Source: an uncultured Ruminococcus sp. | GTDB taxonomy: Bacteria; Bacillota; Clostridia; Oscillospirales; Acutalibacteraceae | DNA: 64,000 nt | NCBI GenBank assembly: GCA_905235715.1 | Contig: CAJONB010000007.1 | Coordinates: forward strand, 32,835 to 96,834 | Reading direction: 5' to 3' | Program-made: the position numbers and the translations under genes | In this document: positions 53,460 through 63,621 of the stretch, piece after piece | Layout: each line of letters begins with the position of its first letter | How positions within the stretch are numbered: the stretch's first letter is position 1 | Notes under the pieces: model-generated | Seen by the model: only the letters and a program-made list of their open reading frames with translations | The model's database searches: none | Told to the model about the DNA's origin: nothing

Positions 53460-55538
53460 ATGGATAAATATACAGGCAAAAAGCTTGACGGAAGATACGA
53501 AATACGTGAGCTGATCGGCGTCGGCGGCATGGCGAATGTGTACCATTGCTACGACACGATTGACGCGCGCGAGGTCGCAATCAAGATTTTGAAGGACGAA
53601 TTCCTCGACAATGAGGATTTTATCAGACGCTTCAAAAATGAGAGCAAGGCTATCGCCATGCTGAATCATCCGAACATCGTCCGTGTATACGACGTCAGCT
53701 TCGGCGATATGATTCAGTATATCGTCATGGAATATATCGACGGTATCACTCTCAAGGAATATATCGATATGCAGGGCGTGCTGGACTGGAAGGAAACCGT
53801 CCACCTCACGACCCAGATTTTGAAGGCGCTTCAGCACGCACATGAAAACGGTATTGTTCACCGCGATATCAAGCCGCATAATATCATGCTTTTGCAGGAT
53901 GGCACCATCAAGGTGACGGACTTCGGTATTGCGCGCTTTTCCTCTAACGCGACCCGCACCATGACCGAGCAGGCTATCGGTTCGGTGCATTATATCGCGC
54001 CCGAACAAGCACGCGGTGAAAAGACCGACGGTAAGACAGATATCTACTCCGTCGGCGTGATGATGTATGAAATGCTCACCGGCACGCTGCCCTTTGACGG
54101 CGACTCCGCCGTTTCTGTCGCGCTCATGCAGCTGCAGGCAAATCCGCGCCGCCCGCGCGAGATTAACCCCGATATTCCTGAGGGTCTCGAGGAAATCACC
54201 ATAAAGGCGATGCAGAAGAATCCCGACGACCGCTATCATTCCGCGGTGGAAATGCTCTCGGATATAGAGCGCTTCCGTCTGAATCCGAGCATCCGCTTCG
54301 GCTATCAGTTCCAAGCTGTCAAGCGTAATGCGGATATCGGCAAAAAATCAAAGACCTCCTCGCGGTCCGATGGGGATGATGACGTTCCGCAGAATATGAT
54401 TTATGATGACGACGCGCCTGTTCGCAGTCCCGCGCTGTCCGCAATCAAGGGCGTTATCATCGCCGCAATCATTGCGCTGCTGGTGTTCGGCGGCATCGCG
54501 CTGTATAAGGATTATGTCGCCTCCAAGCCGGAGGAGCTTGAGGTGCCGAACTTTGTCGGTATGACCCTTAAGGAAGCCCAAACACTCAGCAACGGTAAAT
54601 TCAACTTTACGCAGGAGTATCGCTACAGCGCGGCGATTCCTGTTGATACCATTATCGAACAGAATCCCTCCGGCGGCGCTAAAAAGGTGCAGGAAGGCTC
54701 TACGATCGAGCTGGTTGTTAACTCTGCCGATACCGAGGTCGTTGTACCGTACCTCAACACAGCTATCGGTACCGAAGATATTGTCGCCCACCTGGAGGCG
54801 GTAAATCTTGTTCCGAAGATTCTTTATGTTGAAAGCGAGCAGACCGCGATGAAGGTCGATGCCGTATTCCCTCCTGCCGGTTCTTCGCTGAAAATCGGCT
54901 CGACTGTTTATGTTTTTGTCAGCAAGGGTATCACAAAAGAGCCCGTCACAATGCCTGCTATCAAGGGCTATACCGCTGATGAAGCAGTTAAGATGCTTGA
55001 GGAGGCAGGAATTACCGATTATGCGATAGAGTATGACGACTATATCCAAGCGGATAAGGACGAGGTCGTCCGGCAGAATCCGCTGCAGGGCAGTGTGATT
55101 TCTCCTGACTATAAGGTAACAATCGTCTGCTCTAAGGGCGAGAATCAGGACAAGACTCAGACCATCCTTGTTGACCTGCCGAAGGAGGAGCAGGATCAGG
55201 TTCGCTTGACCGTTTTGATTGACGGCGCAATTGATCAGGATAACAGCAAGGAGGTTATCCCTGCTTACAGTCCGACCTATACCCTCAAATTCAAGGCAAA
55301 GGATAATGTAACCGTTCTGATTCTTCTCAATGACGAGAAATACCGCGAGTATACCGTCGATTATAAGACCGGCTATGTAGAGCTTGTCAACGCCTATTCA
55401 TATACGGTACAAAATCCCGAAACGCCGACATCCGCTTATGTCGACCCCGAACCTCAGACGGAATATGTTCCCGAGGAGGCGGATATCAATCCCGATGAAA
55501 CGGCGATTATGGATGATGACGGCGTATACGAGCTATGA
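53460..55538 (+). CDS. PASTA-domain Ser/Thr protein kinase (PrkC/Stk-like)
   Basis: GVGGMANVYHCYD, VHRDIKPHNIML, DFGIARF; one TM helix and PASTA repeats. Confidence 0.96.
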   Translation: MDKYTGKKLDGRYEIRELIGVGGMANVYHCYDTIDAREVAIKILKDEFLDNEDFIRRFKNESKAIAMLNHPNIVRVYDVSFGDMIQYIVMEYIDGITLKEYIDMQGVLDWKETVHLTTQILKALQHAHENGIVHRDIKPHNIMLLQDGTIKVTDFGIARFSSNATRTMTEQAIGSVHYIAPEQARGEKTDGKTDIYSVGVMMYEMLTGTLPFDGDSAVSVALMQLQANPRRPREINPDIPEGLEEITIKAMQKNPDDRYHSAVEMLSDIERFRLNPSIRFGYQFQAVKRNADIGKKSKTSSRSDGDDDVPQNMIYDDDAPVRSPALSAIKGVIIAAIIALLVFGGIALYKDYVASKPEELEVPNFVGMTLKEAQTLSNGKFNFTQEYRYSAAIPVDTIIEQNPSGGAKKVQEGSTIELVVNSADTEVVVPYLNTAIGTEDIVAHLEAVNLVPKILYVESEQTAMKVDAVFPPAGSSLKIGSTVYVFVSKGITKEPVTMPAIKGYTADEAVKMLEEAGITDYAIEYDDYIQADKDEVVRQNPLQGSVISPDYKVTIVCSKGENQDKTQTILVDLPKEEQDQVRLTVLIDGAIDQDNSKEVIPAYSPTYTLKFKAKDNVTVLILLNDEKYREYTVDYKTGYVELVNAYSYTVQNPETPTSAYVDPEPQTEYVPEEADINPDETAIMDDDGVYEL

Positions 55539-56414
55539 TAAAGACAGAAGGATTAATCGTTAAAATCACCGGCGGCTTCTATTATGCAGAGGCCGCCGAC
55601 GGCATACATGAATGTAAAGCGCGCGGCGTCTTTCGCAAGCGCGGCACCTCACCTCTGGTAGGCGACAGGGTGGATATCACCGTTCCCGACGACGGCTACT
55701 GCTCGATTGACGCGATCCATGAGCGGAAGAATTCGCTTGTTCGCCCCGCGATAGCGAATCTGGATATTTTAATGATAATCAGCTCGGTCAGAGAGCCGAA
55801 CGCGAATCTGTATCTGATTGATAAGATGACCGCCGCTGCTGTCAATAAGAGTATCGAGCCTGTCGTCGTCTTTACAAAGACCGACTTAGGCTCCGCAACT
55901 GAAATGGTTGAGATTTACAGAAAGGCCGGTATCCGCTGCTTTGAGTTCTCCGCCGTTGATATGCGGGGGATAGAGGACGTCAAGGCGGTGCTCAAGGATA
56001 AGGTCACTGCCTTTTGCGGCAACTCCGGCGTCGGAAAATCCACCTTGCTCAATTCGCTGTTTGCTGTCCTTGCAGACGGGTGAAATCAGCGACAAGCTCG
56101 GCAGGGGCAGACATACGACCCGCACCGTTGAGCTGTTCAAAAAGCACGGCGGCTACATTGCCGATACGCCCGGCTTCTCTACCTTGGATATTGAGCGCTT
56201 TGAACTGATTCGCAAGGACGAGCTGAAATTCGCCTTTCCCGAATTTGAACCGTATTTCGGCACCTGCAGATTCAATTCCTGCAACCACCTTTGCGAAAAG
56301 GGCTGCAGCGTGATTGAAGCCGTCGAAAACGGCGTAATCCCGAAGTCCCGCCACGACAGCTACGTCCGTATGTACAACGAGGTCAAGGACATCAAGGACT
56401 GGCAAATGACATAG
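55535..56414 (+). pseudogene. rsgA: Ribosome small subunit GTPase RsgA, split by an apparent frameshift near 56060-56075
   Basis: Frame 1 ends CGNSGVGKSTLLNSLFAVLADG*; the next frame continues LSLQTGEISDKLGRGRHTTRTVELFKKHGGYIADTPGFSTL...CRFNSCNHLCEKGC. Confidence 0.9.
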
Positions 56415-56456: not shown

Positions 56457-56515
56457 CAGCTTCGTAGTAACATATCGGTGCTGCGAAATTTTTTTGTAAA
56501 ATTTCTAAAAAAGTA

Positions 56516-56544
56516 TTGACATACCGGAATAACAATGTTATATT
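56516..56544 (+). promoter_or_regulatory. Sigma-A promoter of candidate sRNA 1
   Basis: TTGACA N17 TATATT. Confidence 0.72.
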
Positions 56545-56550
56545 ATACAC

Positions 56551-56704
56551 ACAGGAGGTTAATTAATGAAGTAATTAACCAAATGACAGTAAAATCAAAT
56601 CGGTAAGTACAGCGCCGATTCAGATTCAACTTCCTACAGCCTCTTAACATAATCAATATATTTCATCAATAAAAACGCGGGATCCCGATGGGTTCCGCGC
56701 TTTT
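56551..56704 (+). ncRNA. Candidate small RNA 1 with hairpin-embedded two-codon minigene
   Basis: Own promoter; perfect 9-bp hairpin GGTTAATTA-atgaag-TAATTAACC; AATCGG/CCGATT hairpin; terminator cgcgggatcccgatgggttccgcg + tttt; longest ATG ORF inside is 7 codons. Confidence 0.5.
56676..56704 (+). terminator. Terminator of candidate sRNA 1
   Basis: cgcggGATCCCgatGGGTTccgcgc tttt. Confidence 0.65.
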
Positions 56705-56825
56705 ATTTTGATAGGAAGCCCGTTTTTATCTTTACGTGGTGTAACTCAACTTCTTATGGTAAGCCTTTGTATCCTGCAAATTTTTGTTGTTTCTGTGACT
56801 GCTTTGGCTCAGATATAAAAAATCT

Positions 56826-56913
56826 ATTGCAAATTTTAGATAGTTATGATACGATAAGTATGCCAACTAATTTACAATTTAATTCAGTACAATACTTGCA
56901 CTAACAGTATTAG
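56826..56913 (+). repeat. 88-bp promoter/leader module, copy A
   Basis: About 83/88 identical by eye to 58847-58934; contains TTGCAA N17 TACGAT with extended -10 (TGaTACGAT). Confidence 0.9.
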
Positions 56914-57104
56914 TATAATTGTACCCTCTTTTCATACAGTAATATCAAGAGTGTTTTTTGCTTGTGTAAAAAACACAGCTCTGACTTATTAGAACACCTT
57001 GATATTATATTGAAATTTGGGTTTGTACTAGTATTGTAAATTAGTTTGGCGACTATCGGAGCTATGTGTTTTTCGGCGCGTAACTTCGGTTGTGCGCCTT
57101 TTTT
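56862..57104 (+). ncRNA. Candidate small RNA 2 (about 240 nt) from leader copy A
   Basis: Promoter in copy A; inverted repeats TAATATCAAG...CTTGATATTA (56940-57007) enclosing GTGTTTTTT/AAAAAACAC; ends in a UUCG-tetraloop terminator; no sizeable ORF. Confidence 0.45.
57075..57104 (+). terminator. Strong UUCG tetraloop terminator
   Basis: GGCGCGTAAC TTCG GTTGTGCGCC TTTTTT. Confidence 0.92.
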
Positions 57105-57237
57105 ATTTGCATGATTTGCAGAATAAAAAGATTTCTTAGTCCGTTCAGCTTGTTAATGCGCTACAACAAGCGACGGCTATGAAAAATGCGCACAAAGCAG
57201 TGATTTATTTTACACTATTATTAAGGAGGAAAAGATA

Positions 57238-58269
57238 ATGAAGAAAATTGTAGCGTTACTTATGGCGGTTCTGCTTGTTATGACCTTTACGGCATGCGGC
57301 GGAGAAAAATGGCCTACCTCAGGATTGGGTGCTATGTTGCCGGCTCCCGGCTCGGGAAAGTTAGAAGTTCATACTAATAAAGACAATTTTCGAGCAACGC
57401 TCGATAAGGCTAAGGATGATGAATTCGAAAAATATGTTCTTGCTTGTGAGGATGCGGGATTTACAGTCGAGGAAGAAAAAGACAACAGTTCTTTTGTTGC
57501 GTTCAACAAAGACGGATATAAGTTAGAAATAAATTCGTACAGCGATAATACTTTAAAAATATACCTGTATTCTCCTATCGAATTGGGCACGCTCAGATGG
57601 CCCGGCGGAAAAGCAGGAAAGTTGATTCCTAAGATAGAAACAAGCTTGGGGAGCACAGAACGCGAAGATGAAAACAGCTTCTTCCTTTATGCAGGAAATA
57701 TTACATTAGAGCAGTTCAATGATTATATTGACAAATGTACTGACGCGGGATTTGATATTGACTATAGCAGAGACGATAAATACTATAGTGCATATAATAA
57801 TGACGGATATCTTCTATATTTGAGTTATGAAGGCTTCAATATTATCAGTATCAGTATGGAATACGACGCAGATGACGATGTTGATGACGAACCGACTGAG
57901 AAGCCTGAGAAACCAACCGAAAAGCCAACCGAAAAGCCAACCGAGAAAAAAGCAGAAGCTCCAAAAGAAGATAATGATAGTAATAAAAAGTCTGATTCCA
58001 TAGATCAGGACATAATTCGTGACGATATTAAAAAGGCAATTGACAGTTACGAAGAGTTCGTTGATGAATATTGCGAATTTATGAAGAATTACGATGCGTC
58101 TGATATTGAACAAATTAAAAAATTGTCTGAGCTAACTACAAAAGAGTTAGAAGTAACTAAGGATTTTAATGCGATTGAAGATAAAGAGTTAACAGACGCG
58201 GAGGCTTTATACTATTCAGAAGTATCTTTGCGCTGTTCGCAGAAAATGTTAGAAGCTGCTCAGTACTGA
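57238..58269 (+). CDS. Secreted lipoprotein with two related domains and a PTEK-type repeat linker (DUF6591-like)
   Basis: MKKIVALLMAVLLVMTFTACGG lipobox; EKPEKPTEKPTEKPTEKK; SD aaggagg. Confidence 0.85.
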   Translation: MKKIVALLMAVLLVMTFTACGGEKWPTSGLGAMLPAPGSGKLEVHTNKDNFRATLDKAKDDEFEKYVLACEDAGFTVEEEKDNSSFVAFNKDGYKLEINSYSDNTLKIYLYSPIELGTLRWPGGKAGKLIPKIETSLGSTEREDENSFFLYAGNITLEQFNDYIDKCTDAGFDIDYSRDDKYYSAYNNDGYLLYLSYEGFNIISISMEYDADDDVDDEPTEKPEKPTEKPTEKPTEKKAEAPKEDNDSNKKSDSIDQDIIRDDIKKAIDSYEEFVDEYCEFMKNYDASDIEQIKKLSELTTKELEVTKDFNAIEDKELTDAEALYYSEVSLRCSQKMLEAAQY

Positions 58270-58281
58270 TTATATTCCGGT

Positions 58282-58689
58282 ATGAAAACAGTTGATATGA
58301 CTTGTCCTCACTGCGGCGGAAAACTGTCGATCAATGAAAACCAAACAAAAGCGACATGTGATTATTGTGATTCCGTGATTTTACTGAAAGAAGAGAAAGA
58401 ATTCGATAATGCAAACCATTTCGAAAACTTAGGATATGAGTTTGAAAAAGGACGACAGAGGGCAAAGCAAGAAGCTTTTCAGCAGAATGCTTCTGTTAAT
58501 TACGGTCAAAACGTTTATGTGAAGAAAAAGCGGCATACTTTTTGGTGGGTAATGGGATGGATTTTTATCTTTCCTATCCCGATAACAATTATCATAAGCC
58601 GTAACAAGACAATGAAAACTTGGTTAAAAACCGGAATCATTGCATTATCATGGTTTGTTTATTTGTTGATAGGTTTTATAAATCAATAG
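58282..58689 (+). CDS. Zinc-ribbon membrane protein
   Basis: CPHCGGKLSINENQTKATCDYCDSVILL plus two C-terminal TM segments. Confidence 0.75.
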   Translation: MKTVDMTCPHCGGKLSINENQTKATCDYCDSVILLKEEKEFDNANHFENLGYEFEKGRQRAKQEAFQQNASVNYGQNVYVKKKRHTFWWVMGWIFIFPIPITIIISRNKTMKTWLKTGIIALSWFVYLLIGFINQ

Positions 58690-58720
58690 ATATATCAGCA
58701 TATAATCGAAACGAAATTGC

Positions 58721-58760
58721 GACAACAGGGAGTACCGAATCGTACTCTCTGTTGTCGTTT
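58721..58760 (+). terminator. Terminator repeat, copy A
   Basis: gacaacagggagtac cgaatc gtactctctgttgtc gtttt, 15-bp stem. Confidence 0.9.
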
Positions 58761-58846
58761 TAACCGGTTAGAATTTAGCGGCATCCCCATTATAACGTCT
58801 ATCATTACGGCTTTTTGTTAACTTTGCGGCTGCTTTTGTTAATTTT

Positions 58847-58934
58847 ATTGCAAATCAGAGATAGTTATGATACGATAAGTATGCCAACTGATTTACAATT
58901 TAATTCAGTACAATACTTGCAATAACAGTATTAG
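58847..58934 (+). repeat. 88-bp promoter/leader module, copy B
   Basis: Same TTGCAA N17 TACGAT promoter and downstream sequence as 56826-56913. Confidence 0.9.
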
Positions 58935-58946
58935 GAGGTTTGGCTT

Positions 58947-59759
58947 TTGCGTAGAAAAGAAGTGGTAAGATGTTTTATAAAAAACTTTTCAGAGTTTTTG
59001 TATAATAACAATTATCATTTATATAAGAATTGTTTTATCAAGTATCAAAACGGAGTGCTTAATAGAGTCAGCGTTTGGACACGTAAAACGATTGATACTG
59101 TTTCTTTAGATATTATTCACTTCTGTAAACCTATTTACGAGGATTTTGTCAGCATAGAAGATGAAAACGAAAATGATGATTTTTCGTTGGCTCAATGTGC
59201 TTTTGCCGATAGTATTCTCAACGATATATATTGGAGCTTTGAATATGGAAATATCGATGACATGAACACGATAATGCAAACAGTTTTTACTGTATATAAA
59301 GATTATTTTGTTCAATTTGATTCAAAAAGCATTGATGACTATAATGCAAATTCTCAGAAATATTTTCAAAAGCTTAATAGTAAAAGAGAGACAGATCCTG
59401 CTGAATATATTTCAGAATTGTTTTCAGGAGAGGCGTCAGTGGATTCTTTACCCAAAGACAGAAAGAATAAAATCGTTGAATTATTGGTAAATGCAAGATA
59501 TACGAGTTATTATATCATTCAACGGCTTAATGAAATATCGCAGTATACATCTTGCAAGGATATAGTAGATGAACTTAACTTAACTCTTGAAAGTGTCAAT
59601 GATTTTAACAAAGAGATTGAATACATACAAGCTTTATGTTATGACGATAAGGACGATTTAAAAACAATGCAAAATCAAGAAGATGTTGAACGAAACAGAA
59701 TTATTGAGAACAATCATAAGCTTCTCTTAGATGCAGGATTGATCGAGCAATCAAAATAG
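58947..59759 (+). CDS. Hypothetical protein (AT-rich gene, no family recognised)
   Basis: 270-aa ORF with TTG start after aggagg; follows leader copy B and precedes terminator copy B. Confidence 0.75.
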   Translation: MRRKEVVRCFIKNFSEFLYNNNYHLYKNCFIKYQNGVLNRVSVWTRKTIDTVSLDIIHFCKPIYEDFVSIEDENENDDFSLAQCAFADSILNDIYWSFEYGNIDDMNTIMQTVFTVYKDYFVQFDSKSIDDYNANSQKYFQKLNSKRETDPAEYISELFSGEASVDSLPKDRKNKIVELLVNARYTSYYIIQRLNEISQYTSCKDIVDELNLTLESVNDFNKEIEYIQALCYDDKDDLKTMQNQEDVERNRIIENNHKLLLDAGLIEQSK

Positions 59760-59765
59760 CTTTGC

Positions 59766-59805
59766 GACAACAGGGAGTACCGAACCGTACTCTCTGTTTT
59801 CGTTT
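59766..59805 (+). terminator. Terminator repeat, copy B
   Basis: gacaacagggagtac cgaacc gtactctctgttttc gttt, near-identical to 58721-58760. Confidence 0.88.
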
Positions 59806-61785: not shown

Positions 61786-61881
61786 GGTTAAAATAATTTG
61801 ATTATATGTTGATAAATTTTCCATGATATGTTAATATAAAAATAAAGGTAGAGCCTGATGATAACGGAAAGGGTGTATTGC

Positions 61882-63621
61882 ATGAAAATTAAAAAGGGTA
61901 TGTTAAAAGCAGCGGCTGCGGTACTGTGTATTGTTTTGCTGATTTCATCCGCCTGTATATCAGTTTTGGCTGCGGAAAATACGCCCCTCGGCTCTATCGT
62001 TTGGCTTCCGCTGAGCGTGACGTCCGAGAACATAGAGACCGACCCGGATTACCTTACGTACAAGTCTTTTCTTGAGGAAAACAGCGGGGTCGTCAGCGCG
62101 GTTTATGACGGCATTACCTCGTTCAGCAGCAGTATTGACATCAGCGAATATGACGTTTCCCGTGGTGACGCCTCGACGCTGATTCAATTGATGTACCACT
62201 CGTTTCCCGAGCTGTTTTATGTCAGCCGGTATAGCTACAGCTATGAGGATGACAAGCTGTATACGATTTATCCGAAGTATATCGACGGCAATATCGAAGA
62301 GATGAAGCAAGAATTCTTTGCGAGCGCCGAGCACTATTTATCGCTGGTTGACGACAGCATGGATGATTTTACAAAAGCGGTTATCCTCCACGACGCGCTT
62401 GTGCTTGACAGCCGTTATACTCAAGATGACGCTGTATTCTTCGGAAACAATTACACCTATATGGTTGAGGGCTGGGGTACTTGCCAGTATTACAGCGAAT
62501 GTTATGCCTATCTTTTAGCTCAGTGCGGTATCGAAAGCGAGATCATCAATTCCACAGCTATGGGACACGAATGGCTGAAGGTCAAGCTCGACGGCAGCTA
62601 TTATAATATCGACTTAACATGGGACGATCCTATACCCGATAAAGTGGGTAAGGTAAAGCACACGTTTTTCCTTTACAGCGACGCCGCGTTCCAAACAGCG
62701 GATACCGATATTCAGCGCGGCCGTCACTACAATTATCAATCGATTAACAACGCTGACTCTGCTTTTTATGACCGTTTTGATAATCTCCATCATTTTAACA
62801 CAAAGCTTTGCTATGTAGACGGCAACTTTTACGCTATTACTCCGGACGGCAGATTGGTTCGGTACAATCATTCGGACGATTCCATTACCGTATTGGATAC
62901 CTTGGATTTTAATTGGAAAGCAGGCGAAAACTTTGCCTGGAGAGGAAATTATTCTTCTCTCGTCGACTATGACAAAAAGCTGTATTACAACAGTCCTGAC
63001 GCGGTTTATCAGTATGATCCCGCAACACGGAAAACGAAGCTCTTTGCCGAAGGGAACGGAACCGAACCGCTTTACGGCCTGCGAATTATCGACAATCAGC
63101 TATGGGGCGTATATGCTTCCGACCCGACGGTCGGCTACGTTGAGCCGGTCTATCTGAAGGATATTCCGAAGCCGGTTTATACCGTAACGGTTGACAGCGG
63201 CATTATCAACGGAACGGTTGCCGCCGATAAGCAGACTGCCGTTGAGGGAGAGGTCGTTACCCTGACCGTAAGCCCCGGCGAGGGCTTCGAGGCCGTCAGC
63301 GTTACAGCGAATCAAATGCAGGTTATCCCGCGGAACGGCGTATACTCGTTCAGAATGCCGGCTGAAAACGTCGTTGTTTCGGCGGTATTCGAGAACGGTC
63401 ATCATACTTTGCTCGGCGATGTCGACGGCGACGGTAAAGTTACCATTGTAGACGCTACATATATTCAACGTTATCTTGTTGACTTCAAGATGGATTCCTT
63501 CAATGAAGCTGCCGCGGATGTTGACGGCGACGGCGTGGTTACGATCGTTGACGCGACTTTGATTCAGCGTTATCTCGTCGAAATACCTGTCAACTTCCCG
63601 ATCAATCAATACATCAAATAA
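61882..63621 (+). CDS. Secreted transglutaminase-like protein with InlB-type repeat and C-terminal type I dockerin
   Basis: Signal peptide; GWGTCQYYSECYAYLL / GHEWLKVKL / YNIDLTWDDP triad; LLGDVDGDGKVTIVDATYIQRYL...DVDGDGVVTIVDATLIQRYL. Confidence 0.9.
   Translation: MKIKKGMLKAAAAVLCIVLLISSACISVLAAENTPLGSIVWLPLSVTSENIETDPDYLTYKSFLEENSGVVSAVYDGITSFSSSIDISEYDVSRGDASTLIQLMYHSFPELFYVSRYSYSYEDDKLYTIYPKYIDGNIEEMKQEFFASAEHYLSLVDDSMDDFTKAVILHDALVLDSRYTQDDAVFFGNNYTYMVEGWGTCQYYSECYAYLLAQCGIESEIINSTAMGHEWLKVKLDGSYYNIDLTWDDPIPDKVGKVKHTFFLYSDAAFQTADTDIQRGRHYNYQSINNADSAFYDRFDNLHHFNTKLCYVDGNFYAITPDGRLVRYNHSDDSITVLDTLDFNWKAGENFAWRGNYSSLVDYDKKLYYNSPDAVYQYDPATRKTKLFAEGNGTEPLYGLRIIDNQLWGVYASDPTVGYVEPVYLKDIPKPVYTVTVDSGIINGTVAADKQTAVEGEVVTLTVSPGEGFEAVSVTANQMQVIPRNGVYSFRMPAENVVVSAVFENGHHTLLGDVDGDGKVTIVDATYIQRYLVDFKMDSFNEAAADVDGDGVVTIVDATLIQRYLVEIPVNFPINQYIK
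63409..63600 (+). other. Type I dockerin module
   Basis: Duplicated DVDGDGxVTIVDATxIQRYL. Confidence 0.93.

Follow-up and report, generated by a model that had tools for sequence, protein, structure and literature searches.

Structured leader RNAs before genes for secreted and surface proteins in Clostridia: a putative family of riboswitch-like transcription attenuators

The window analyzed here, 64,000 nucleotides of contig CAJONB010000007.1 from an uncultured Ruminococcus sp. (GenBank assembly GCA_905235715.1), contains two adjacent transcription units; every feature of the window given below lies on its forward (+) strand and is numbered from its first letter. The first unit begins with a promoter at 56827–56855 (−35 TTGCAA at 56827–56832, a 17-nucleotide spacer, and a TG-extended −10, TACGAT, at 56850–56855), followed by a structured leader RNA, leader A, that includes a terminator of its own (56862–57104, about 243 nucleotides). 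Behind it, a Shine-Dalgarno sequence at 57223–57230 precedes the gene for a predicted lipoprotein with a DUF6591 domain (57238–58269; Pfam PF20234, E = 7.7e-74). A second open reading frame (58282–58689) encodes a small protein with an N-terminal CxxC...CxxC zinc-ribbon-like motif, for which all Pfam zinc-ribbon matches are sub-threshold, and a hydrophobic C-terminal part; the unit then ends at terminator A (58720–58760). The second unit consists of module B (58848–58934), gene B (58947–59759), an open reading frame for a 270-residue protein that starts with TTG after the Shine-Dalgarno sequence AGGAGG, and terminator B (59765–59805), a copy of terminator A. Gene B has no Pfam match above the curated cut-off, and comparison with the DUF6591 gene gave no similarity, which led us to reject shared ancestry of the two units' cargo.

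Three neighboring features deserve mention. An RsgA-type GTPase gene occupies two overlapping frames (55535–56083 and 56061–56414), split near 56060–56083 by a frameshift or an assembly error. At 56511–56712, a promoter-like TTGACA...TATATT is followed by AGGAGG-TTAATTA-ATGAAGTAA, the last part being a two-codon open reading frame within an inverted repeat, and then by a terminator hairpin; the hairpin gives a weak L20-leader match (27 bits against a cut-off of 58.7), and the element is possibly another small leader or sRNA. A large secreted protein encoded at 61858–63621 carries at its C-terminus a duplicated calcium-binding repeat of dockerin-like type, a hint of a cellulosome-type host.

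Self-comparison of the window pairs the starts of the two units as modules A and B (56820–56913 and 58841–58934; 94 nucleotides, 93% identity, spacing 2021 bp). The 88-nucleotide core is 94% identical, and TTGCAA, the 17-nucleotide spacer, TACGAT and the extending TG are common to both copies, as an earlier note on this DNA had described. The near-identical terminators that it placed at 58721 and 59766 are equally real: a 57-nucleotide repeat, 58704–58760 against 59749–59805, is 86% identical, with predicted hairpins at 58720–58757 (−28.0 kcal/mol) and 59765–59802 (−21.8 kcal/mol). Given their length and identity, the module and terminator repeats are not chance resemblances. The note went on to suggest a modular family, which might recur elsewhere in the genome, of an 88-bp module and a 42-bp terminator. 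Genome-wide BLAST found two copies of each, all in the window, the outcome that the note had itself named as refuting the idea, and the end-terminator sequence had no copy across 34 relatives. Because there are only two copies of each in the genome, module and terminator fit a local duplication. What does recur before unrelated genes, in this genome and in relatives, is the entire leader of promoter, RNA and terminator in diverged form; BLAST with the 88-mer misses it because the leader copies in this genome are only 56–62% identical to each other. The repeated leader, the structured noncoding RNA and the terminators are all present at the locus as the note had it, but the RNA is not an element distinct from module A: the 3′ half of the module (56862–56913) is the 5′ arm of the RNA.

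Module B has the promoter and 5′ arm alone, the RNA body and its terminator being missing. A structured leader B was rejected, as its 95-nucleotide start folds no better than shuffles (z = −0.3). The 5′ arm is kept to ...CAGTATTAG (58934), after which the sequence continues with GAGG-TTTGGC and gene B begins. In leader A, ATTAG occurs at 56909–56913 and again at 57040–57044, with TTTGGC after the second copy, and removing the stretch between the two copies yields nearly the junction seen in module B, which suggests that module B is probably a deletion derivative of the leader A unit. A local duplication of that unit followed by loss of the duplicate's RNA would have left a promoter without the switch, and gene B, if this reading is true, should escape the attenuator proposed below.

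Leader A is predicted to form a long branched hairpin and then a terminator. The fold of 56860–57105 has an energy of −78.7 kcal/mol (z = −8.0), matched by 0 of 200 shuffles. Helix P1 joins a 5′ arm, GCCAACTAATTTACAAT (56862–56878), which lies in the 3′ half of module A, to a 3′ arm, ATTGTAAATTAGTTTGGC (57033–57050). Within 56941–57006, P3 (56941–56949 with 56998–57006) surrounds the P4 hairpin (56951–56961 with 56966–56981). The A-rich 3′ strand of P4, GTAAAAAACACAGCTC (56966–56981), is also complementary to GGAGCTATGTGTTTTTC (57058–57074), a strand immediately 5′ of the terminator that is conserved in the family, and could pair with it in a long-range helix, LR. The intrinsic terminator of the leader (57074–57104) is a hairpin of −13.0 kcal/mol followed by six T residues. 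A short upstream open reading frame at GGAGCUAUG was rejected, as its AUG is not kept among copies.

BLAST searches with the RNA, in place of the module, matched 24 of 59 genomes, some of them at many sites, and the matched sites follow a common plan: behind the promoter and the first P1 arm come variable arms and an A/T-rich hairpin, then the second P1 arm, and finally a GGAGCUAUGUGUUUUU-like strand, which is conserved, and a terminator. Twelve short copies aligned with MAFFT (alignment A1) yielded a covariance model, R1. Its match to the window copy scores 62.8 bits over a reported span of 56977–57103, the full extent of 56862–57104 being taken from P1, beyond that span. The source genome has four copies, one in the window (contig C7), a tandem pair on C127 and one on C50. 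In the large searches, which scored few candidates per genome, R1 matched 103 of the 295 genomes taken from the order and 68 of the 245 taken from the class; across 398 phylum-wide genomes, about 380 of which were outside the class, the source genome alone matched. Fuller scoring of 20 chosen genomes gave 4 to 27 copies each. Identity between copies averages 69% within a genome, with a maximum of 87%, and reaches 98% across genomes. Since the near-identical copies sit in separate genomes and those of a single genome are divergent, we take the RNA to be inherited rather than freshly inserted. At locus L207 (G172:C48, about 330–930), three complete promoter-RNA-terminator units with differing P1 sequences stand in tandem before one gene, with a period of about 200 bp; paired tandem units are seen in other genomes, and L213 also carries an array of complete units.

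The existence of this RNA family and of its structure seems to us nearly certain. In A1, 95.4% of the pairs over the 12 seed copies are standard ones, against 38–51% when the 3′ side is slid. Alignment A3, which was fitted to the model as A1 was not, holds 90 copies outside the R1 seed; 96.7% of its cells are paired, and double changes occur in 36 of the 38 base pairs, against 21 in shuffles. Over the same 90 copies, 12 of the 13 P1 pairs show double changes, and all 9 pairs of the family terminator covary. A partner-swap test of duplex energies agrees with A1, giving z = −22.6 for same-copy P1 strands. The arms vary together (GCCAAAC/GTTTGGC, GCGACAC/GTGTCGC, GCCACAC/GTGTGGC and others), and these compensatory changes therefore mean that P1 is not a fixed DNA inverted repeat.

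Both pairings of the A-rich strand are conserved in the family. LR is 97.6% paired in the family, with 49 double-change cells against 8.7 in shuffled alignments, and strands from the same copy fit each other better than swapped ones in both helices (z = −12.7 for LR and −8.4 for P4, against +2.2 for a control pair). The LR duplex is the stronger of the two in 90 of 90 copies; in the window the energies are −12.9 kcal/mol for LR and −11.9 kcal/mol for P4. Since they share residues, P4 and LR are mutually exclusive, and mutually exclusive, covarying, copy-specific helices are what one looks for in a riboswitch. Taken on its pairing pattern, the arrangement is the anatomy of a switch. The alternative helix that removes a terminator arm, usual in riboswitches and not universal, was not found: P4 and LR both lie clear of the terminator arms, which covary as partners of one another; LR stops next to the terminator, and no antiterminator is visible. 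We also considered a triple helix (U.A-U) and dropped it, since the order of the tail fits antiparallel Watson-Crick pairing. In the long subfamily, as seen in the window copy, L039 and L041, the 5′ strand of P4 can alternatively pair with a downstream GAACACC, extending P3 (56950–57006 in the window), which would leave the A-rich strand free for LR. At L040 and L043, both in genome G034, P1 is intact and neither a canonical LR strand nor a terminator follows it; these copies are either decaying or differently controlled.

The order of promoter, RNA, terminator, ribosome-binding site and gene is fixed in the family. Of 155 copies, 113 have a −10 element that starts exactly 11 nucleotides 5′ of the RNA, and 120 have the TG extension. 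A Shine-Dalgarno sequence and open reading frame follow within 40 nucleotides of the terminator in 89 of 155 family copies; for other predicted terminators at the same loci the figure is 19 of 315 (odds ratio 21, p = 2e-34). By a simple rule (signal peptide, lipobox or N-terminal membrane segment), 79 of 102 target proteins of at least 100 residues (77%) are secreted, lipoproteins or membrane proteins, against 82 of 336 neighbors (24%; p = 7e-22). BspA-type LRR proteins account for 28 of 126 RNA-adjacent genes and the DUF6591 domain for 2, one of them in the window; no RNA was found beside distant DUF6591 homologues at 16 loci. Copper-amine-oxidase-N surface proteins, CHAP and M23 enzymes, SLH and ricin-lectin proteins, zinc ribbons and HTH regulators make up other targets, and PADLOC returned only scattered HTH-type and single matches among the adjacent proteins. 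For about 15% of copies, some at contig ends, no downstream gene was detected. What the regulated genes have in common is a location in the cell; no shared pathway points to a ligand. Position before genes and the bias in targets argue for regulation in cis, and two further marks of a riboswitch are found here, namely a 5′ leader that has its promoter and terminator ahead of the gene, and a structured domain supported by covariation.

We consider it fairly probable that leader A belongs to a family of cis-acting, riboswitch-like leader RNAs that attenuate transcription ahead of genes for secreted and surface proteins, a view built on comparative sequence evidence; attenuation is its likely function. 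The fixed promoter would start the RNA within 1 to 2 nucleotides of P1, the transcript would fold as a long imperfect hairpin (P1-P2-P3-P4) and then as an intrinsic terminator, and termination would stop the polymerase short of the ribosome-binding site of the next gene, which in most cases codes for a secreted or surface protein. P4 could form as soon as it has been transcribed; LR would have to await the last strand and is predicted to be more stable. Because P4 would form first, and LR needs that last strand and is the more stable, passage from P4 to LR would amount to strand exchange during transcription, and a signal could bias the choice between read-through and termination. More tentatively, and with appreciable doubt, we suggest that these RNAs are a new signal-sensing leader class that coordinates secreted and surface proteins of many Clostridia, in which the terminator is controlled through the neighboring competition of an LR pseudoknot with P4 and no arm is unpaired. 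If the RNAs work as proposed, a single class of them would determine what a large share of gut-type Clostridia display among their surface and secreted proteins, such as BspA-type LRR proteins, CHAP and M23 cell-wall enzymes and lipoproteins, and the signal sensed would offer a new way to study the encounters of these bacteria with their host and neighbors. It also raises a mechanistic question, namely how a conserved strand exchange beside a terminator, and not within it, might govern read-through.

Other readings of the same elements must be weighed. Each unit could be a complete gene for a trans-acting sRNA with a constitutive terminator, the neighboring gene being expressed through leak or from its own promoter. 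The promoter and strong terminator of every copy, the arrays at L207 and L213 with two or three whole units in tandem, and the copies with no detected gene behind them would suit such a gene; we nevertheless find it unlikely in view of the strong same-strand preference for a gene start within 40 nucleotides of the terminator, the preference for one kind of target gene, and the fact that no unpaired conserved seed region is evident. Also improbable, in our estimate, is protein-dependent or processive antitermination of the kind seen with LoaP targets, EAR or put, in which the structure would recruit a factor or alter the polymerase so that the terminator is ignored. A large structured RNA just before a terminator would be expected of such a system, and switch helices that stay clear of the terminator arms fit action through polymerase or a bound factor. 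Yet LoaP gave no match above its family cut-off in any of the 18 RNA-bearing genomes tested, on which ground we rejected it as the partner; the one genome of 36 with an NF033641 (LoaP) match above the cut-off, G314, is itself without a match to the RNA, and neither EAR nor any other Rfam family matches the RNA.

A MITE-like repetitive or mobile element that carries a promoter and hairpins by chance might be suspected from the many copies per genome, the inverted P1 arms and the frequent tandem copies. We regard it as very improbable: P1 varies by compensatory pairs and so does not behave as a fixed DNA end, copies within a genome never exceed the 87% identity noted above while near-identical ones occupy separate genomes, the terminator lies outside the inverted arms, and the position before genes is fixed. 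Hardest of all to credit is a family of cassettes that has the 88-bp module and 42-bp terminator as flanks for exchangeable cargo; unrelated genes at this locus do lie between two leaders and two terminators, but module and terminator occur twice each, side by side, and the terminator is absent from the relatives searched.

The attenuating leader family that we favor is apparently undescribed. Nothing in the window matches Rfam 15 at the gathering threshold, and ranking by E-value gave chance-level matches only, for the window copy and 15 loci. A match of L085 to rli32 (E = 0.001, 25.8 bits against a cut-off of 100) was rejected; it is absent from L097. We found no paper describing the RNA, and the main texts of three surveys (PMC8632094, PMC11109978, PMC8040213), searched by term, gave no such architecture, host range or gene context. 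As far as those texts go, their candidate structured RNAs rest on the same kind of comparative evidence as ours. Prior description is possible, for example in survey supplements, the Weinberg motif database (ZWD) or the 2017 survey of 224 motifs.

Several known systems resemble the family in part. Transcription-terminating riboswitches include the c-di-GMP leaders of surface-protein genes in Clostridia. Like them, the RNA is a 5′ leader with its own promoter, a compact covarying fold, alternative helices and an intrinsic terminator before the Shine-Dalgarno sequence, present in many copies over a set of genes; unlike them, it matches no Rfam riboswitch model and its alternative helices are clear of the terminator arm. 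Like EAR, put and LoaP-dependent leaders, it is a structured RNA that might allow polymerase through a terminator, but here a terminator of its own follows each RNA directly, with one gene or a short operon behind it. Type III toxin-antitoxin loci (ToxIN-like) also consist of a promoter, a structured RNA that is sometimes repeated, a terminator and a gene; the genes behind our RNA, in contrast, encode surface proteins of many families, and among the 126 adjacent proteins no toxin resembling ToxN, CptN or TenpN appeared in the PADLOC tally or in the best 25 of 57 Pfam families.

A phage or plasmid origin of the RNA was rejected, the searches having lent it no support: there was no near match in the phage search, no match in the plasmid search and no exact consensus match in viral contigs. 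Two unannotated contigs from human feces labelled Bacteriophage sp., MT835845.1 (L126, positions 2076–2231) and MT837627.1, do carry the RNA at 73–76% identity, and may reflect phage carriage or mislabelled bacterial DNA.
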